Source: Natrinema mahii (GTDB lineage Archaea; Halobacteriota; Halobacteria; Halobacteriales; Natrialbaceae). From it: a stretch of 64,000 nucleotides of DNA. The stretch spans positions 248,001 to 312,000 of the forward strand of contig JHUT02000003.1 of assembly GCA_000690595.2 (NCBI GenBank). The letters are read 5' to 3'. The first letter of the stretch is position 1. Every line of letters begins with the position of its first letter. Shown here one piece after another: positions 47,465 through 57,353 of the stretch. Under the pieces are notes generated by a model that worked only from the letters and a program-made list of their open reading frames with translations, did not search any database and was not told where the DNA came from. Position numbers and translations under genes: made by a program.

Positions 47465-48607
47465 ATGAGCGATCGCCAGCCAGTCGTCGTGCAGGCAGTC
47501 AGGACTCCGCAAGGGAAACACGGTGGCGTCTTCGCCGAGACCGGCAGCGAGGAGCTGTCGGTCCCGCTCGTCGACGAGATGCTCGAGCGGACGGGCCTTA
47601 CCGGCGAGGACGTCGACGATATCCGGTGGGGCTGTGCCAAACAGGTCAACGAACAGAGCAACAACATCGCGCGGGTGATCGCTCTCCTGTCCGATCTCGG
47701 TGAGGGCGTTCCCGGCACGACGATCGACCGGCTCTGTGCCTCCTCGGCGGAGGCGATCATGAGCGCCAGCGACGCCGTCCGGGCGGGCCAGCGCGACGTG
47801 ATCGTCGCTGGCGGCGTCGAGAACATGTCCCGCAACGAGCGCCGGAAGGGGATCGACTCCTACGCGGGCATCGCCGAGCAGTACGACGCGGCCGGGCTCG
47901 CGATGGGCCAGACCGCCGAGAAAGTCGCTGAAGAGTTCGACATCAGCCGCGACCAGCAAGACGAGTACGGCGCTCGGAGCCAGCAGCGCGCGGTCGAAGC
48001 GACCGAGGACGGCAAGTTCGACGCGGAGATCGTCCCGATCGAGACCGAGGCGGGCCTCGTCGAGGAGGACGAGGGGCTCCGTCCCGGCACGACCAAAGAG
48101 AAGATCGCCGGCCTTCCGCCAGCGTTCCGCGAGGAGGGTACGGTCACCGCCGCCAACGCCTCGCAGGTCTCCGACGGCGCTGCCGGCGTCCTCATCACGA
48201 GCAAGGCGTTCGCCGAGGAGCAGGGCCTCGAGATCATGGCCGAGATCGAGGACCACAACGTCGCGGGCGTCGATCCGACGATCATGGGTGTCGGCCCGGT
48301 CCCCGCGGTCCGGGGGATCTGGGAGCGCAACGGCCGCTCGGCCGACGACTACGATCTCGTGGAACTCAACGAGGCCTTCGCGAGCCAGACGATCTACTGT
48401 CGGGCCGAACTCGGCTTCGACGACGATCGGTTCAACGTCAACGGCGGCGCGATCGCCATCGGCCACCCGCTCGGCGCGTCGGGGGCCCGCCTGCCCGTCA
48501 CGCTGATTCACGAACTCCAGCGCCGGGGCGGCGGGCTGGGGCTCTCGACGATGTGCGTCGGCTATGGACAGGGCGCGGCCGTCGAGTTCCGCGTGCCGGA
48601 GCAGTAG
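47465..48607 (+). CDS. Thiolase (acetyl-CoA C-acyltransferase)
   Basis: A 380-residue thiolase with complete active site: Cys91 in [10 protein letters not shown], His334 in GHPLGASG and Cys364 in CVGYGQG, plus NEAF near 298. It cleaves or forms 3-oxoacyl-CoA in beta-oxidation. It belongs to the same degradative type as the gene at 27854 but differs in the loop before the nucleophile ([12 protein letters not shown]). The start at 47465 gives the typical first strand [13 protein letters not shown]. It is divergent from a 3-hydroxyacyl-CoA dehydrogenase, a pairing that fits two consecutive steps of the same pathway. Confidence 0.93.
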
Positions 48608-48771: not shown

Positions 48772-49911
48772 CTAGAGGATCTGGTCGGCGATGATGTTCT
48801 TCTGGATCTCGCTGGTGCCCTCGTAGATCTTCGTGATGCGGGCGTCGCGGTAGTAGCGCTCGGCGGGATAGTCCGTGACGTAGCCCGAGCCGCCGTGGAC
48901 CTGAATGCCCTCGTCGGCGACTTCGACCGAGATCTCGCTCGCGAAGTACTTCGCCATGCTCGAGTACTGCGCGGCGATGTCCTGATTCTCCTGCTCGACC
49001 TGGGTCGCGGCGCGGTAGGTCAGCGAGCGGGCGGCCTCGACCTTGGTGGCCATCTCGGCGATCTTGTGCTGGATGGCCTGGAAGTCCGAGATCTTCTGGT
49101 CGAACTGCTCGCGCTGGTTGGCGTACTCGATGGCGGCGTCGAGTGCGCCCTGTGCGGCACCGACGGCCTGCGCGGCGACGCTGGTGCGGCCGGAGGCGAA
49201 GAACTCCATCAGCTGGTAGAAGCCCTTGTCGACCTCGCCGATGACGTTGTCCTCGGGGATGCGGACGTCGTCGATGACGACCTCGGCGAGGTCCGAGGCG
49301 CGAATTCCGAGCTTGTTGTCGATCTTGTCGGTCGAGACGCCGTCGCGGTCCATCTCGACGAGGAAGGCGGTGATGCCCTTGTGGCCCTCGCCGGGGCTGG
49401 TCTTGGCCATGCAGACGCCGACGTCGGCGACGGTCCCGTTGGTGATCCACATCTTGTTGCCGTTGAGGACGTACTCGTCGCCGTCCTTCTCGGCGACCGT
49501 CTCGATGCCGGCGACGTTCGAGCCGTGGGCGGGCTCGGAGATCATCGAACAGGAGGCGGTCTCGCCGTTGGCGATCTGGGGCAGCCACTCCTCTTTCATC
49601 CACTCGTCACCGAACTCGACGATCATGTCCGTCCCGAAGCCGGCCGAGCCGACGGCGGAGCCGATCCCGGGGTCGGCACGCCAGAGTTCCTCGGTGACGA
49701 TCGTCGAGGAGATCTTGTCCATCCCGGCCCCGTCGTACTCGAGCGGGATGTTCGGCGCGACGAAGTCGTACTCGGCGGCCTTCTTGCGGAGTTCCTCGGG
49801 GTATTTCCCCTCCTGATCGTGTTCCTCCGCGACCGGCTTCATCTCGTTCTCCCCGAACTCGCGGACGGCCTCACGGATCGCTTCGTGTTCGGCTGACAGC
49901 TGGAACGTCAT
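48772..49911 (-). CDS. Acyl-CoA dehydrogenase
   Basis: A 379-residue acyl-CoA dehydrogenase of the standard short/medium-chain length. SMISEPAHGSNVAG and YVLNGNKMWITNG are the usual flavin and substrate loops. The catalytic Glu is in IYEGTSEIQKN near residue 363, in the most canonical form among the five paralogues of this window. GSGYVTDYPAERYYRDAR is also typical. It should carry out the FAD-dependent 2,3-oxidation of saturated acyl-CoA with electron transfer to ETF. It converges with the thiolase at 47465 and lies downstream of the CoA ligase at 50067 on the same strand. Confidence 0.94.
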   Translation of the reverse strand: MTFQLSAEHEAIREAVREFGENEMKPVAEEHDQEGKYPEELRKKAAEYDFVAPNIPLEYDGAGMDKISSTIVTEELWRADPGIGSAVGSAGFGTDMIVEFGDEWMKEEWLPQIANGETASCSMISEPAHGSNVAGIETVAEKDGDEYVLNGNKMWITNGTVADVGVCMAKTSPGEGHKGITAFLVEMDRDGVSTDKIDNKLGIRASDLAEVVIDDVRIPEDNVIGEVDKGFYQLMEFFASGRTSVAAQAVGAAQGALDAAIEYANQREQFDQKISDFQAIQHKIAEMATKVEAARSLTYRAATQVEQENQDIAAQYSSMAKYFASEISVEVADEGIQVHGGSGYVTDYPAERYYRDARITKIYEGTSEIQKNIIADQIL

Positions 49912-50066: not shown

Positions 50067-51635
50067 CTATTGCTCGTTTTCGCCTTCGCCACGGAGTTCG
50101 AACTTCTGGACCTTCCCGGTCGTCGTCCGGGGCAGTGCCTGGACGAACTCGACCTCGCGGGGGTGTTTGTACTCCGCGAGGTTCTCGAGGCAGTACTGCT
50201 TGATGTCTTCCGGCGTCGCCTCGGCGTCGGGCGTCGTCACGACGAACGCTTTCACGGTTTCGCCGCGGCGCTCGTCCGGCACGCCGACGACGGCGGCGTC
50301 GGCGACGTCTTCGTGTTCGAAGAGGAGTTCCTCGACTTCGCGTGGGTAGACGTTGTAGCCGCCCGTGACGATCATGTGCTTCTCGCGGTCGACGACGTAG
50401 AAGAAGTCGTCCTCGTCCCAGTAGCCGATGTCGCCGGTGTGGAACCAGCGCTTGCCGTCCTCGTTAGTGAAGGCCTCCTCGTTGGCCTCCGGTAGGCCGT
50501 AATACTCCTTCATCACGTTGGGGCCGTGGATGACGAGTTCGCCGGTGATGTCGTGGATCGCGGCCTCCTCCTCGTCGATCGGACCCTCCGCAACGCGGGG
50601 GACCTCCTCGAAGTCCTCGTCGACGATCTTCGCCTCGACGCCCTCGAGGGGCTGGCCGATGCTGCCCTTCCGACGGCTCTCGTTGGTGTTGGCGTGAGTG
50701 ACCGGACTCGTTTCGGTCAGACCGTAGCCCTCGTTGAGCTGGACGTCCCAGAGGTCCTCGAACCGCTCTAAGACCTCCAGCGGGAGACTCGAGCCGCCGG
50801 AGTTGGCAAAGCGCAGGGACTCGAACTCGTAGCGCTCGGCGTCCGGGTGGTTGATCATGTCGTTGAACATCGCGGGGACGGCGAACATGATGGTGATCTC
50901 GTCGTCCTCGAGCTGGTCCATCACCTCGGTGGCGTCCCACTTCGGCACCGGGTAGTAGGTGCCGCCGCTGTACATCGCGCCGTTCATGACGACGGACATG
51001 CCGTAGATGTGAAACAGCGGGAGCGTCCCGATGAGCCGGTCGGAGGCCTGGAAGCCGCCCGGCGGGATGACGGCGTTGGCCCGCGTCGTAAAGGCGAGGT
51101 TGTGATGGGTCAGGAGGACGCCTTTCGGCGTGCCCGTCGTCCCGGAGGTGTAGGGCTGGACCGCGACGTCGTCGTCCGCGCGATCGACGACGGCTTTGGT
51201 GTCCTCGGCGAGGAAGTCGTCGAACTCGGTCGCGCCATCGACGTCGGCTCCGACGCTGACGACCTGCTCGACGTCCGTGTCGTCTTGGACCTCGAGGACG
51301 TTGGGAACCAGATCGGCGAGCGCGACGACGGCCTTGGCCTCGCTGTCGCCGAGCATGTGGCTGATCTCACGGGCCTTGTACTGGGGGTTCATCGGGACGA
51401 TGATGCCGCCGGCACGCAGGGTGCCGTAGAAGGCCGTGACGAACTGCGGCAGGTTCGGCAGGTAGATCCCGACGCGGTCTCCCTCGCCGATGCCACGATT
51501 CTCGAGGGCCTGTGCGAACTGTCCGGCTCGCTGCCAGAACGCCTCGTAGCTCAGTTCGGTCCCTTCGTACGCGATCGCGGGCGATTCCGGGTTCGCATCG
51601 ACGGTCTCGACGACCTCCGTCACGAGGTTTGTCAT
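50067..51635 (-). CDS. Acyl-CoA synthetase (AMP-forming)
   Basis: A 522-residue ANL ligase. YTSGTTGTPKGVLLTHHN lies near residue 158, GYGLTETSPVTHAN near 290, the hinge segment WFHTGDIGYWDEDDFFY near 390, and the C-terminal Lys in TTTGKVQKFEL. The segment YNVYPREVEELLF is shared with the ligases at 10329 and 16068. Between GYGLTET and the hinge an extra acidic loop (VAEGPIDEEEAAIHD) is unusual. Substrate may be a fatty, aryl or dicarboxylic acid. Upstream on the same strand lie the TRAP transporter genes, so it could activate the imported acid. This is inference. Confidence 0.9.
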   Translation of the reverse strand: MTNLVTEVVETVDANPESPAIAYEGTELSYEAFWQRAGQFAQALENRGIGEGDRVGIYLPNLPQFVTAFYGTLRAGGIIVPMNPQYKAREISHMLGDSEAKAVVALADLVPNVLEVQDDTDVEQVVSVGADVDGATEFDDFLAEDTKAVVDRADDDVAVQPYTSGTTGTPKGVLLTHHNLAFTTRANAVIPPGGFQASDRLIGTLPLFHIYGMSVVMNGAMYSGGTYYPVPKWDATEVMDQLEDDEITIMFAVPAMFNDMINHPDAERYEFESLRFANSGGSSLPLEVLERFEDLWDVQLNEGYGLTETSPVTHANTNESRRKGSIGQPLEGVEAKIVDEDFEEVPRVAEGPIDEEEAAIHDITGELVIHGPNVMKEYYGLPEANEEAFTNEDGKRWFHTGDIGYWDEDDFFYVVDREKHMIVTGGYNVYPREVEELLFEHEDVADAAVVGVPDERRGETVKAFVVTTPDAEATPEDIKQYCLENLAEYKHPREVEFVQALPRTTTGKVQKFELRGEGENEQ

Positions 51636-51741: not shown

Positions 51742-53928
51742 TCAGTCGAGCGTCGTCGGATCCACGCCGGACTCGGTGCCGGTGTCGTTCGGCAGGTCGT
51801 AGCCGACGACGTATCGGGCGTGTAGCAACGCGGCGACGATCGCTGCTGCGGCGACGAGTTGGATGGCGACGTGGACGATCGAGCCGAACATCGCGCCGGC
51901 GGCGGCGATGACGAAGACCGCACGAACCGGGGCGGAGAGATCCCGCGCTCCGTCGAACCCGATCGTCGCGACGATCAGGGCGACGGTACCGGCAAGCACG
52001 ACGGGGAACGCGACGAGCGTCTCGCTCGACCAGTAGATCAGGCTCTCGTTCGCGATGAACGCGTAGGGGATGACGAACCCGGGCGCGCCGAGTCGGAGCG
52101 CCTGTTTAGCCGACTGGAGGAAGCCCGCGCCCGCGATCCGTGCGCCGATCGCGACGGAGATCGCGACCGGCGGCGTGATCGCCGACAGCATCGCGAAGTA
52201 GAACACGAACATGTGTGTCGCGATGTCGGGCGTTCCCAGTTCGGTGATCGGCTTCGCGACCAGGATGGCCACGAGGATGTACGCCGCGGGCGTCGGCATC
52301 CCCAGCCCGAACAGGATACTGGCGATCATCGCGAGGAACAGGACGACGAACAGTCCTCCGCCGAAGCCGAGAATGCTCACGTCGCCGAGGCTGACGATCG
52401 ACGTCGCGACGCGAGCCGTCAGCCCCGTTCCCTCGAGCAGTTCGACGATCACGCCCATGGCCGCGAGGACGCCGACCAGCGGTGCCATGTCGACGCCGCC
52501 CTGCTTGAACCCGTCGACGGTCTGCTTGGCCGTCGCGAAGAGGTTCGAGAGCGGATCGTCGCCCCGTATTTCCCGTCCAAAGACTTCGGCCGTCACTTCG
52601 TCGGAGCCGACGTCGAAGACGCCGACCACGAAGTTCCGGACGAACATCACGCCGATGATCGCGAAGATCGTGTTCATGCCCGATGACAGTGGCGTATACC
52701 GAAGGTAGACGAGCGTATACAGGAGGACGCCCATCGGGATCGCGAAGTGGAGTCCGTTGAGGAGGAGCCGCCACCTGAACGACGAGAGGTCGTTCGAGAT
52801 CCAACCGAACTTGAGGATCGTAAAGTGGACGGCCAGACAGACGCTGAAGTAGAACAGCGCCGCCGGAATGATTCCCGCCTGAACGATGTCCAGATACGGG
52901 ACCTGGATGATGTCGGCCATCAGGAACGCCGCGACGCCCATCACGGGCGGCAGCATCTGACCGCCCGCCGAGGCGACCGCCTCGATCGAGGCCGCGATGT
53001 CGCTGTCGACGCCCTGATCCTTGATCATCGGGATCGTGAAGCTGCCGGTCGTCGCCGTGTTGGCCGCCGCGCTACCGGTGATCGAGCCCATGATCATGCT
53101 CGAGATGACGGCGATCTGGACGACGCCGGTCCGGAGGCTCCGTCCGAGTTCCTTCCCGATCTCACGGACGAACTCCATCAGCCCGAACGCCTTCGCGATG
53201 CCGGCGAACATGATAAAGATCGCGACCCACGTCGAGCCGATCCCCATCATCGTGCCGTCGTAGACGCCGCTGAGCGCGATCGCGCCGTTCTCGGCGATCT
53301 GCTCCCAGCTTTGCCCCGAGTGCTGGAAGACGCCGAATAGCCGCGGGCCGACTGCGGAGTGAGCGTAGGCGATCGCGGCGACGGCGACGGCCGCGATCGT
53401 GGTACCGAACGCCCGGCGGGTCGTGTCGACTGCCAGCGCGATCAACACCACGCCGACGACGTGGTCGGTGGTTGTGTAGCCGAGGATGTACGCGTCCCCG
53501 TCGAGTCGGCTGAAGTTCGTGTAGACGTGGTACATCGTGTACAGCGCCGCGAGGGCGAGGGCGAGGGCGATGTACGGATCAACCCGCTTCCAGACGCGTC
53601 GCGCTCGCTCGAGCGCACCGTCGGCGCTTTCGCTGGCCGGTGACGTCGCTGCCTCGGCGTCGGCACCGACGCCGGCGTTCTCGTCGGCGAGTTGTTGGTA
53701 GACGTAGTCGAGGTAGTACAGCGTGATCCCCATGCCGAAAAAGAGGATCATGTACCGCTTGTCACGGACTACCCAGCGCGGTTCCTCGACGAGGCCGGTA
53801 AGAGGCCAGCCGCCGACGAGGGACACGGCGTACAGGACGGTGTAGCCCGTCAGGACGAACCCCAATGTGTACACGAGGAGTCCGAGGGCGACCTCGGGGA
53901 GACCGCGATCGGAGTATGTTTCGGACAT
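51742..53928 (-). CDS. TRAP transporter fused permease (DctQM type)
   Basis: A 728-residue membrane protein that joins the small (4-helix) and large (about 12-helix) TRAP permease parts in one chain, as is normal for TAXI-type systems. The large part contains GSITGSAAANTATTGSFTIP and SAITPPVAIS, both characteristic of the DctM fold. A polar insertion (about 80-110) separates early helices. It imports an organic acid with a sodium or proton gradient. The binding protein gene precedes it with only 8 bases between, so both are in one operon. The substrate is not visible; many TAXI systems carry dicarboxylates such as 2-oxoglutarate, glutamate or related acids. Confidence 0.9.
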   Translation of the reverse strand: MSETYSDRGLPEVALGLLVYTLGFVLTGYTVLYAVSLVGGWPLTGLVEEPRWVVRDKRYMILFFGMGITLYYLDYVYQQLADENAGVGADAEAATSPASESADGALERARRVWKRVDPYIALALALAALYTMYHVYTNFSRLDGDAYILGYTTTDHVVGVVLIALAVDTTRRAFGTTIAAVAVAAIAYAHSAVGPRLFGVFQHSGQSWEQIAENGAIALSGVYDGTMMGIGSTWVAIFIMFAGIAKAFGLMEFVREIGKELGRSLRTGVVQIAVISSMIMGSITGSAAANTATTGSFTIPMIKDQGVDSDIAASIEAVASAGGQMLPPVMGVAAFLMADIIQVPYLDIVQAGIIPAALFYFSVCLAVHFTILKFGWISNDLSSFRWRLLLNGLHFAIPMGVLLYTLVYLRYTPLSSGMNTIFAIIGVMFVRNFVVGVFDVGSDEVTAEVFGREIRGDDPLSNLFATAKQTVDGFKQGGVDMAPLVGVLAAMGVIVELLEGTGLTARVATSIVSLGDVSILGFGGGLFVVLFLAMIASILFGLGMPTPAAYILVAILVAKPITELGTPDIATHMFVFYFAMLSAITPPVAISVAIGARIAGAGFLQSAKQALRLGAPGFVIPYAFIANESLIYWSSETLVAFPVVLAGTVALIVATIGFDGARDLSAPVRAVFVIAAAGAMFGSIVHVAIQLVAAAAIVAALLHARYVVGYDLPNDTGTESGVDPTTLD

Positions 53929-53936
53929 CGATTCCG

Positions 53937-55010
53937 TTAGTTATCGCCGTCGGCGATGAAGAACCACGGCAGATCGTAGAAGTGGACGATCTGCGCCATC
54001 TGGAAGTCGAGTTCGCTGTAGGCACCGGCACCGTCTTCGACCTCCTGTGCCGACCAGTTCTGGATGTACACCATCTCGGCGTCCTCCTGATTGAGCGCAC
54101 CGAGGTTCGCCTCGGTCCCCTCGCTCGTCTGGGCTTCGACGAATATGTCGCTGGTCGCGTCGTTGACGGCGCTGGCCATTCCCTGGTTGGCGGTGTAGGC
54201 CGTCGTCGTCGACGTCGACGTCCGCATCCGGACGTCCGTGTCGCCGGTCGCGCCGCCGCTCGTACTGCCGCCGGCGCGCTCGAACTCGTCGCTCCAGACG
54301 CCGATCTCCTCGTAGAAATCCGCTGCGGCGTCGTGGAACGGGACGCCGTCGTACATGTTCTTCACCCAGAAGTCGTCTTCCTCGTGAGTCGCCAGTAGGC
54401 CGGCGTATTCCGAGAGTTCCGATTTCTGTTCGTAGAGCGTCTCGAGGAACGTGTAGACCGTGTCGTACTCGAGGTCGGCCCGGGAGACGAAGTTGTACGC
54501 GAACGTCGGCGCGGGGACCTCGTCCGGGGCGTCGACGTTCTCGATCTGGCCCGTCTCGGTCGGTCGGATCAGCAGTCGGTCGTCGTCGTTCCAGGCCTGT
54601 TCGGTCTCGTCGCTCACGTCGAGGACGGTGAGGTTGTCGACCGTACTCGCGGTCTGCTGGAGCCAGCTGGGCGTGATCGAGAAGTTCATCAGCGTTCCGA
54701 CGCCGACGTCGAGCTGGTTCTCGTTGATCGCGTTGCCCTGATTCCCGTAGCTCGTACTCACGCGGTTGTAGTCGTCGGTTGCGTGACCGAGCGCTCGCTC
54801 GAGTGCCGGTGCCGTTCCGGAGCCGCTCGGCGTCGGCGACACTGACGTGTTCTCGTTGATGTCCGACAGCGTCTCGAGGGGACCACTGCTGCCACCGCTC
54901 GTCTCACCGCCGAGACAGCCGGCGATCGCTGCGAGGGAGCCGGCGCCTGCTGCCGCGAGAACCGATCGTCGAGTCGAACGCCTATCCGTGTGCTTGTGTT
55001 CGTTCGCCAT
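53937..55010 (-). CDS. TAXI-type TRAP solute-binding lipoprotein with swapped halves
   Basis: A 357-residue Tat lipoprotein: twin Arg in RRSTRRSVLAA, lipobox AGC near residues 29-31. After a Gly/Ser linker, residues about 44-250 carry the second half of a TAXI protein (LSDINENTSVSPTPSGSGT, QLDVGVGTLMN, YDTVYTFLETLYE, DGVPFHDAAADFYEE). A GGSTSGGATGDT linker follows, then residues about 257-357 carry the first half (DVRMRTSTSTTTAYTANQGM, EANLGALNQEDAEMVY). In normal TAXI proteins these occur in the opposite order. This suggests a circular permutation. The start at 55010 lies 27 bases after TTATAACA; 55025 is the alternative. It should capture the substrate for the fused permease. Confidence 0.82.
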   Translation of the reverse strand: MANEHKHTDRRSTRRSVLAAAGAGSLAAIAGCLGGETSGGSSGPLETLSDINENTSVSPTPSGSGTAPALERALGHATDDYNRVSTSYGNQGNAINENQLDVGVGTLMNFSITPSWLQQTASTVDNLTVLDVSDETEQAWNDDDRLLIRPTETGQIENVDAPDEVPAPTFAYNFVSRADLEYDTVYTFLETLYEQKSELSEYAGLLATHEEDDFWVKNMYDGVPFHDAAADFYEEIGVWSDEFERAGGSTSGGATGDTDVRMRTSTSTTTAYTANQGMASAVNDATSDIFVEAQTSEGTEANLGALNQEDAEMVYIQNWSAQEVEDGAGAYSELDFQMAQIVHFYDLPWFFIADGDN

Positions 55011-55033
55011 GGGGAACCTCTTCATACTTACCT

Positions 55034-55041
55034 GTTATAAT
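55034..55041 (-). promoter_or_regulatory. TATA box of the TAXI-TRAP operon
   Basis: The minus strand reads TTATAACA, centred about 27 bases before ATG 55010. This favours 55010 over 55025 as the start and predicts a leaderless operon mRNA. A dyad GATAG-N7-CTATC (55068-55084) lies just upstream and could be an operator. Confidence 0.5.
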
Positions 55042-55243
55042 CCTTCCGCTATCTGCCGAAATTGGCCGATAGTCATATGCTATCGTACAGCAATCATGCT
55101 GTCTACACTACGTTTGGCGGCAGCCGGGACACCTTGGGTCCGAACAGTGACGGTCCTGAGCGGCCGTCCGCTGTCGTTTCGCTGGTCGATAACGTGACAA
55201 GTGGTATCGCAATACCTATTGTGCCATTCCCATAGGTCTAGGT

Positions 55244-56407
55244 ATGCTGGATTTCGTTCAGCTTGAGGAAGACCTCGACCAGGAAGAGCGGATGATCCGG
55301 GACACCGCCCGGGAGTTCGTCGACGAACACGTCAAGCCCGACATCGGCGACCACTTCGAGGCGGGGACGTTCCCGAAGGAACTCATCCCGAAGATGGGGG
55401 AACTCGGCTTTTACGCCCCCAATCTCGAGGGCTATGGCTCGCCGAACGTCTCCGAGACGGCCTACGGCCTGTTGATGCAGGAACTCGAGGCCGGCGACTC
55501 GGGGCTGCGCTCGATGGCGTCGGTTCAGGGCGCGTTGGTCATGTACCCGATCCATGCTTACGGGAGCGAGGAACAGAAAGAGGAGTGGCTGCCGGAGATG
55601 GGACGGGGCGAGGCGATCGGTTGCTTCGGCCTCACCGAACCCGAACACGGCTCGAACCCGTCGGCGATGGAGACCCGTGCCGAGCGCGACGGCGACGGCT
55701 ACGTCCTCAACGGCTCCAAAACCTGGATCACGAACTCGCCGATCGCCGACGTGGCCATCGTCTGGGCGCGTGACAAGTCGGCCGAGGACGACCCCGTTCG
55801 CGGGTTCCTCGTCGAGACCGACCGCGACGGCGTCACGACCAACAAGATCGACGACAAGCTCTCGCTGCGGGCCTCGATCACGGGCGAGATCGGCCTGAAC
55901 GACGTCCACGTGCCCGAGGAGAACGTCCTCCCCGGCGTCGAGGGCATGAAGGGGCCGCTGTCCTGTCTCACGCAGGCCCGCTACGGCATCGCCTGGGGCG
56001 CGGTCGGCGCCGCCCGGGACTGCTTCGAGGAGGCCCGACAGTACGCGAAAGATCGCGACCAGTTCGGCGGCCCGATCGGTCGGTTCCAGCTCCAACAGCG
56101 CAAGCTTGCGGAGATGGGCACCCAGATCACGCTGGCACAGTTGCTGGCTCACCGGCTCGCCGAACTCAAAGAGCGCGGCGAGATGCGGCCACAGCACGTC
56201 TCGATGTCGAAGCGAAACAACGTCCGCATGGCCCGAAACCAGGCCCGCATCGCCCGCGAGATGCTCGGCGGCAACGGCATCACCACCGACTACTCGCCGA
56301 TGCGGCACATGTCCAACCTCGAGACGGTCTACACCTACGAGGGCACCCACGACATCCACACCCTCGTCCTCGGCGAGGAGTTCACCGGCATCCCCGCCTA
56401 CCAGTAA
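55244..56407 (+). CDS. Glutaryl-CoA dehydrogenase-like acyl-CoA dehydrogenase
   Basis: A 387-residue acyl-CoA dehydrogenase of the glutaryl-CoA dehydrogenase branch. Glu82 and Arg89 in ELEAGDSGLRS match the Glu and Arg that bind the distal carboxylate of glutaryl-CoA. Catalytic Glu366 lies in TYEGTHDIHTL, a form typical of this branch. The N-terminus LEEDLDQEERMIRDTAREF also fits. It may oxidise and decarboxylate glutaryl-CoA to crotonyl-CoA, or only oxidise it. A CaiB-linked or 2-methylsuccinyl-type substrate is possible. It is divergent from the TAXI-TRAP operon, which may bring in the acid, and is followed by an IclR regulator. Confidence 0.88.
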   Translation: MLDFVQLEEDLDQEERMIRDTAREFVDEHVKPDIGDHFEAGTFPKELIPKMGELGFYAPNLEGYGSPNVSETAYGLLMQELEAGDSGLRSMASVQGALVMYPIHAYGSEEQKEEWLPEMGRGEAIGCFGLTEPEHGSNPSAMETRAERDGDGYVLNGSKTWITNSPIADVAIVWARDKSAEDDPVRGFLVETDRDGVTTNKIDDKLSLRASITGEIGLNDVHVPEENVLPGVEGMKGPLSCLTQARYGIAWGAVGAARDCFEEARQYAKDRDQFGGPIGRFQLQQRKLAEMGTQITLAQLLAHRLAELKERGEMRPQHVSMSKRNNVRMARNQARIAREMLGGNGITTDYSPMRHMSNLETVYTYEGTHDIHTLVLGEEFTGIPAYQ

Positions 56408-56555: not shown

Positions 56556-56580
56556 AATATTAATTGCGCTGTCCGAACAG
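56556..56580 (+). promoter_or_regulatory. Promoter and possible operator of the second IclR gene
   Basis: AATATTAATT (56556-56565) is centred about 28 bases before ATG 56589. Between TATA box and start lies CTGTCCGAACAG (56569-56580), with 4-base inverted ends. A protein bound there would block initiation, so autorepression is possible. Confidence 0.4.
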
Positions 56581-56588
56581 TATCGCAC

Positions 56589-57353
56589 ATGGGCACGGAT
56601 CGAGACGGGGACGACGGGGCCGGCGTTTCCACGACGCGGAAGACGTTCCGACTCCTCGAGGCACTCAAAGACGAGGAAGGCGTTACTATCGCCGATCTCA
56701 CCGAGCGGACGACCCTTCCGAAAAGCACCGTCTACCGCCATCTCCAGACGCTGACCGAACTGGGATACGTGATCGAACGCGACGGCCGTTACTACGTCGG
56801 GTTCCGGTTCGTCGAACTCGGCGAGCAGGCCCGGTCCCGGAAGACGGGATACTCGGCCGCGAAGCGAGCGGTGTTCGAACTCGGCACGGAGACCGACGAA
56901 CGCGCGGTATTCATCGTCGAAGAGGACGACGACGCCGTCTACGTCCACCGCTACGGCAGTCTCTCGAACTCGATGATCGGCCAGCGCCGACCCCTGCACT
57001 CGATGGCCTCCGGGAAAGTGATTCTCGCGGAGTGGGACGACGACGCCGTCGCGGCCTACGCCGAACGGACCGGTCTCGAGGCACACACGGCGAACACGAT
57101 TACCGACCTCGACGCGCTCTTCGACGAACTCGAGCGGGTTCGAGACCGCGGCTACGCGGTGAACGAACAGGAGCACATGGACGGCCTTCGCGGGATCGCC
57201 GTCCCAGTCTACACTCCCGACGACGAGTTTCTCGGCTCGCTGGCCGTTTTCGGGCCGACAAGCCGATTTACCGACGACTACGTTTACGACGAACTGGTGG
57301 CCCGGCTCCGGGACAAGGCGGGTGAGATCAAAGTCACGCTCGCATACGGGTGA
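56589..57353 (+). CDS. IclR-family transcriptional regulator
   Basis: A 254-residue regulator with an N-terminal winged helix-turn-helix (about 15-75, recognition helix in TTLPKSTVYRHLQTL) and a C-terminal IclR effector domain (about 85-250, with LHSMASGKVILAEW and RGIAVPVYTPDDEFLGSL). It has the same architecture as the regulator at 5193 but differs clearly in the effector pocket. The ATG at 56589 follows a strong TATA box at leaderless distance. The neighbours, a glutaryl-CoA-dehydrogenase-like gene and the TRAP operon, are the likely targets. The effector may be the imported acid or its CoA ester. Confidence 0.9.
   Translation: MGTDRDGDDGAGVSTTRKTFRLLEALKDEEGVTIADLTERTTLPKSTVYRHLQTLTELGYVIERDGRYYVGFRFVELGEQARSRKTGYSAAKRAVFELGTETDERAVFIVEEDDDAVYVHRYGSLSNSMIGQRRPLHSMASGKVILAEWDDDAVAAYAERTGLEAHTANTITDLDALFDELERVRDRGYAVNEQEHMDGLRGIAVPVYTPDDEFLGSLAVFGPTSRFTDDYVYDELVARLRDKAGEIKVTLAYG

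Follow-up and report, generated by a model that had tools for sequence, protein, structure and literature searches.

Introduction

Natural circular permutants are usually met long after the event that produced them, when the ancestor is gone. A duplication/deletion model for their origin has been reviewed (PMC3281007), and a lipid-anchored example is TpMglB-2 (Tp0684) of Treponema pallidum, a permuted sugar-binding protein designated 'Type Ic', for which tethering was suggested as a factor favouring permutation (PMC4990184). Solute-binding proteins (SBPs) of the TAXI family include VcGluP, in which domain 1 comprises residues 29-115 and 268-328, the hinge strands residues 116-131 and 255-267, and domain 2 residues 132-254 (PMC11574862), and TAXI-GltS BP0403 of Bordetella pertussis, which has extra N-terminal and helical domains before the standard TAXI domain and a GltS partner (PMC12344293). 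In searches of the open-licence literature, we came across no permuted TRAP or TAXI protein.

Here we analyse a stretch of 64,000 nucleotides from Natrinema mahii (the window), in which an initial annotation, made from the sequence without database searches, had described a TAXI SBP with its two halves in swapped order. The features of this locus are collected in Table 1.

Table 1. Features of the permuted SBP gene and its neighbourhood (window positions).
Feature	Position	Strand	Basis
ORF of permuted SBP	53937-55025	(-)	read directly
Permuted SBP coding region, 357 aa, ATG at 55010	53940-55010	(-)	
Putative archaeal promoter: BRE-like GCGGAAGG, then TATA-like ATTATAA	55035..55049	(-)	motif; role putative
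Tat-type signal (RRSVL), hydrophobic stretch, lipobox AIAGC	54915..55010	(-)	sequence; Cys32 predicted to be lipidated
Gly/Ser tether, residues 33-43	54882..54914	(-)	sequence
Former second part of TAXI (S1 + S2), residues 44-247, now N-terminal	54270..54881	(-)	PF16868 102-289, TIGR02122 147-320, HMM segments
Linker, residues 248-258, old C-terminus to old N-terminus	54237..54269	(-)	comparison of canonical tails and tethers
Former first part of TAXI (N), residues 259-357, now C-terminal	53940..54236	(-)	PF16868 3-86, TIGR02122 29-104
Fused TRAP permease	51742..53928	(-)	TIGR02123 396.8 bits (cut-off 320.65), DctM; 8 bases after SBP stop
Acyl-CoA ligase (AMP-binding)	50067..51635	(-)	Pfam; synteny, conserved neighbour
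Acyl-CoA dehydrogenase	48772..49911	(-)	Pfam; synteny, conserved neighbour
Acetyl-CoA C-acyltransferase (thiolase)	47465..48607	(+)	TIGR01930 442.6 bits (cut-off 240.55); synteny, conserved neighbour
Second acyl-CoA dehydrogenase, divergent from SBP	55244..56407	(+)	Pfam; synteny, conserved neighbour
IclR-type regulator, frequent neighbour	56577..57353	(+)	PF01614, PF09339; synteny

Results

The placement of the second TAXI half before the first is borne out by two family profiles, whose C-terminal and N-terminal parts are matched in inverted order. PF16868 matches the whole SBP at E = 2e-18 and 67.4 bits (cut-off 27) in two stretches that cover both parts; its best stretch aligns residues 44-237 to profile positions 102-289, and when the C-terminal piece is searched alone, fragment residues 14-92 (approximately 264-342 of the SBP) align to profile positions 3-86. 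The same inversion is seen with TIGR02122, where residues 60-237 correspond to profile positions 147-320 and the C-terminal fragment to 29-104, and also with TAXI chains from the PDB. NMT1_3 (PF16868) is the sole Pfam family matched. Rotated in silico, the sequence aligns to TIGR02122 without a break over positions 32-320 (68.8 bits), in place of two separate stretches (59.6 bits), and TAXI chain 9ibp is the best PDB match of the rotated sequence, over query residues 33-294 of 303 (4.4e-6). Both as encoded and as rotated, the SBP scores below the NCBI cut-off of 84.35 bits for TIGR02122, which is a threshold for naming and not a biological criterion; elsewhere, a normal-order relative (L013) reaches 113.5 bits and a relative with the B order defined below (L011) 87.8 bits. 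For the two segments first proposed, residues 44-250 and 257-357, the inverted order stands, and the borders were refined to those in Table 1, with a linker between them. As had also been noticed, the C-terminus lies where the first half would enter the second: the chain ends ...DLPWFFIADGDN, precisely where canonical proteins continue into LETLSDI. Since the SBP is homologous to TAXI proteins but departs from the chain order of the family, it is classed as a permuted variant.

The sequence contains a twin-arginine leader and a lipobox with Cys32, in agreement with the earlier reading as a Tat-exported lipoprotein, and the leader is homologous across canonical and permuted relatives. The promoter motif GCGGAAGG-ATTATAA is centred approximately 28 bases before the ATG at 55010, and an upstream comparison revealed an equal motif at equal spacing before SBPs with the same permutation and before many canonical orthologues. 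A BRE/TATA-like motif at this distance from the start codon would fit leaderless transcription of the SBP gene.

We searched 391 haloarchaeal genomes, then the whole genus (29 genomes) and then the family (125 genomes), and described segment order with three HMM segments: N, the first part; S1, the opening 36 residues of the second part; and S2, its remainder. The 84 distinct proteins gathered before the search of a second family comprise 68 with the order N-S1-S2, 10 with the order S1-S2-N of the window ('A') and 6 with the order S2-N-S1 ('B'), in which the cut lies approximately 36 residues further on than in A. No further permuted gene was found in the 146 genomes of the second family. A is present in ten genomes, nine of them Natrinema (this one included, together with N. 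thermotolerans, N. gari, N. versiforme and N. pallidum) and one Natrialba taiwanensis. Chance similarity and an erroneous assembly join are ruled out, because the S1-S2-N order recurs in nine further genomes of related haloarchaea. The SBP is thereby confirmed as a true circular permutation of a TAXI protein, with relatives in normal and permuted order being up to 75% identical.

Five Natrialbaceae genomes carry B (B1), as does G351, a genome from a different family (B2); the B loci are L091-L096 and L061-L065. One of the five is Natrarchaeobaculum sulfurireducens, whose B gene lies on a plasmid in each of two records that were sequenced separately (NZ_CP024046.1 and NZ_CP027032.1). In these records the B form bears just the name 'substrate-binding domain-containing protein', whereas plasmid genes in normal order are called TAXI; permutation seems to keep automatic naming from recognising the family. 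Separately, an equally scoring pair of TAXI genes was observed on one contig, approximately 243 kb apart (G432:C3:4219 and 247311), possibly representing a recent duplication.

In A, the chain ends ...YDLPWFFIADGDN and restarts, after leader and tether, at (D)LETLSDI, and the normal counterpart of this cut reads ...DLPWFFITDDAD-LETLSDI; in the window SBP the cut falls between ...DLPWFFI and LETLSDI.... B proteins start at (D)YERVS and end ...LERALEHALD, where the normal sequence reads ...LERALGYATD-DYERVS. At both breakpoints scarcely any residue has been lost or duplicated. The old ends are joined as WSDEYERADG-SSSGSGGSGET-TVRMRTS in A (L009) and as WSDEFERADE-PDDTFEVD-TIRMKTS in B (L016), resembling a normal C-terminal tail (RADEP) followed by a normal lipoprotein tether (GDGGSGET-TVRMRTS in L012). 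An old tail joined to an old tether is what would be expected if two tandem copies had fused and the stop codon and second signal peptide had disappeared, and tandem duplication, fusion and trimming would be the best mechanism for the permutation. The duplication and trimming proposed at the outset are therefore plausible and agree with the linker remnants, but no duplicated or intermediate order (N-C-N-C) was found among the 84 proteins.

To place the order changes on a tree, all SBPs were rotated to normal order and aligned by segment. A forms a single clade (100/98) nested among normal-order proteins, and B appears in two places, with five Natrialbaceae proteins adjoining the normal-order L120 and with L011 apart. 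An AU test rejects a single origin of B (p 1.4e-9) and a single origin of A and B together (p 5e-9); on the tree, one origin of both B lineages would in addition need approximately six reversions to normal order. Trees from S2 alone and from N+S1 alone show the same three order changes, and their agreement indicates that mosaic genes are not the explanation. In the permease tree, the A partners form one clade (SH-aLRT 99) and the B1 partners another (100), with the B2 partner elsewhere. B2 is supported by a single genome (G351), in which the gene is on one contig, with an intact frame and its own permease. The concordance of the SBP, part and permease trees shows that permutation has at least three separate origins, with two cut sites, in the haloarchaeal TAXI family.

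Members of A and B1 and closely related normal forms mostly share one chromosomal slot that consists of thiolase, acyl-CoA dehydrogenase, ligase, permease, SBP and divergent acyl-CoA dehydrogenase, often together with an IclR regulator; in B2 (G351) the permease is present and the remainder of the slot is absent. Among the neighbouring enzymes the thiolase alone passes an NCBIfam cut-off (TIGR01930), so that the substrate is left at 'organic acid'. G091 belongs to the same genus; its flanks match the window mostly at 97-100% identity, but its SBP and permease are of another, normal-order lineage, nearest in the trees to those of Natrialba asiatica and N. aegyptia. Normal and permuted forms can fill one chromosomal place. 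The exchanged piece is approximately 3.3 kb long (window 51900-55200 compared with L110 of G091 and with L032) and covers the body of the SBP together with most of the permease. Compared with N. thermotolerans, near-complete identity extends as far as the codons that follow the twin arginine and resumes at the last approximately 100 bases of the permease. These edges, within the signal peptide and at the permease 3' end, indicate that the permease and the body of the SBP were swapped together as one cassette, with homologous recombination as the presumed route. Two different SBP-permease pairs are arranged in tandem within the slot of G064 (L132:4039-10557, (-)), and in G119 the normal-order TAXI gene of the slot is split over two frames by a frameshift (L144:6510-7589, (-)).

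AlphaFold2, run on alignments built solely from sequences gathered in this analysis, gave models with a pLDDT of 92.9 for A (the window SBP) and 94.9 for B. In the window SBP, mature residues 1-9 have a pLDDT below 50, and residues 221-224 of the mature model, in the linker, are of low confidence. The list of helices and strands in B equals that in A with the first long helix shifted to the end, i.e., a rotation, and two long strands in the A model (134-146 and 307-323) appear compatible with the TAXI hinge strands. With Foldseek, the A model and TAXI entry 9ibp aligned over 217-225 columns; the VIA lists were filled by other two-lobed binding proteins. Since both methods follow chain order, a partial TAXI alignment is expected of a permutant but is no positive proof of TAXI topology. 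The structural expectation is thus favoured by a confident alpha/beta prediction and a rotated order of elements, but not by the chain-order searches, which gave no full-length TAXI match.

Values of dN/dS are 0.09-0.21 within A, measured against the window, which indicates functional genes, and 0.05-0.17 within B1. All near-invariant positions across 45 related proteins are retained in the window SBP, and the family-conserved residues kept include S296, G298, T299, N302, Q317, N318 and W319. The suggestion that the protein still works with its permease is favoured by co-inheritance and by the sequence signature of purifying selection. When mapped on VcGluP by homology, hinge strand 1 ends at cut A, and cut B falls inside domain 2. 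Because all three cuts are at the start of or in domain 2, the lipid-bearing N-terminus would move from domain 1 to domain 2; we hypothesise that the lipid anchor was relocated in this way in all three permutations, and that in A a single covalent crossover between the lobes may remain.

Discussion

Taken as a whole, it is very probable that the window encodes a working permuted SBP of the TAXI type, belonging to a set of permutations that arose at least three times via tandem duplication and spread as cassettes with their permeases. We infer that the SBP would be exported via Tat, anchored by lipid and folded into two lobes, and that it would deliver its ligand to the fused TRAP permease, whose gene starts 8 bases downstream. 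Its chain would be opened where the first hinge strand meets domain 2, with the old ends joined by an 11-residue linker, and its ligand would probably be an organic acid that is degraded by the adjoining CoA ligase, dehydrogenases and thiolase. Such a gene would most likely have arisen by duplication in tandem, after which the copies fused in frame, the stop codon and the second signal peptide were lost, and both ends of the fused gene were trimmed; homologous recombination would subsequently have spread the SBP-permease cassette into one fixed slot of the chromosome.

Compatible with this explanation, and possible although we would give it somewhat less than an even chance, is that the repeated permutations were adaptive, with the anchor shift from domain 1 to domain 2 altering permease docking or the hinge; the alternative would be neutral topological drift. 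In line with adaptation, all three cuts are at the start of or in the domain 2 segment (VcGluP limits from PMC11574862, mapped by homology), the permease partners of permuted SBPs form separate clades, and the work on permuted TpMglB-2 proposed a role for tethering (PMC4990184). However, domain 2 makes up a large share of the chain, so that three of three cuts there may be chance (three events are too few, and the pattern is not significant), and normal-order cassettes fill the same slot in close relatives. We tentatively suggest that permutation may be recurrent, selectable variation among haloarchaeal TAXI transporters, in which the anchor moved from domain 1 to domain 2 and cassettes were exchanged, making topology a polymorphism of the locus.

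The agreement of the part trees also bears on whether parts of two different TAXI genes were fused (by heterologous fusion or by fission and fusion) rather than one gene being permuted. Several haloarchaea have more than one TAXI gene, and some of these genes lie close together, but S2 and N+S1 each put A beside identical normal-order relatives, each with three order changes, and residues are scarcely lost or duplicated at the cut, making such a fusion improbable. Slightly less credible still is that the SBP is permuted but decaying or non-functional, leaving a defunct transporter: the frameshift in the normal-order relative of G119 provides a precedent for decay in this slot, but the dN/dS values of 0.09-0.21, the intact frames in ten genomes, the conserved promoter motif, the family residues kept in the permuted SBP and the intact permease all argue against it. 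That two gene copies were joined by an error of assembly or annotation has a negligible probability, given ten genomes with the same order but differing flanks and contig structures, and B in two separately sequenced Natrarchaeobaculum sulfurireducens plasmids.

For the permuted TAXI proteins, the normal and permuted forms are found at one locus in one genus with the same neighbours, with three origins at two sites. The locus permits a direct test of how permutation originates, whether it is neutral and whether anchor position matters for substrate handover in TRAP systems; the last of these questions had come up for TpMglB-2 without an answer. The B form of the Natrarchaeobaculum plasmid further illustrates how permuted proteins escape annotation.

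Compared with known systems, TAXI SBPs (TIGR02122, PF16868; VcGluP, Thermus 1us4/1us5) resemble the window SBP in homologous sequence and in having a fused TRAP permease as partner. They are two-lobed binding proteins and many are lipoproteins, as is predicted for the window SBP, whose fold comes from a model, and a normal-order TAXI gene occupies the same slot in its relatives; the window SBP probably works like a TAXI protein. Unlike TAXI proteins, A is rotated at the hinge-1/domain-2 border and B inside domain 2, and the lipid anchor would be on the other lobe. BP0403 is similar to the window SBP in having an unusual architecture for the TAXI family, but no permutation was reported for it (PMC12344293).

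The closest precedent is TpMglB-2, which like the window SBP is a natural circular permutant of a lipid-anchored two-lobed SBP. TpMglB-2, however, is a Type I sugar-binding (MglB) protein of an ABC system, a family to which the window SBP has no Pfam match. Its cut is within the N lobe, it has a fourth crossover, and its permuted part is too diverged for its origin to be traced (PMC4990184), whereas haloarchaeal TAXI proteins in normal and in permuted order share up to 75% identity, and three origins can be told apart. Natural circular permutants in general likely share the genetic route of the haloarchaeal TAXI proteins, but the latter differ in combining several independent events within a narrow family with an unpermuted form at the same locus.
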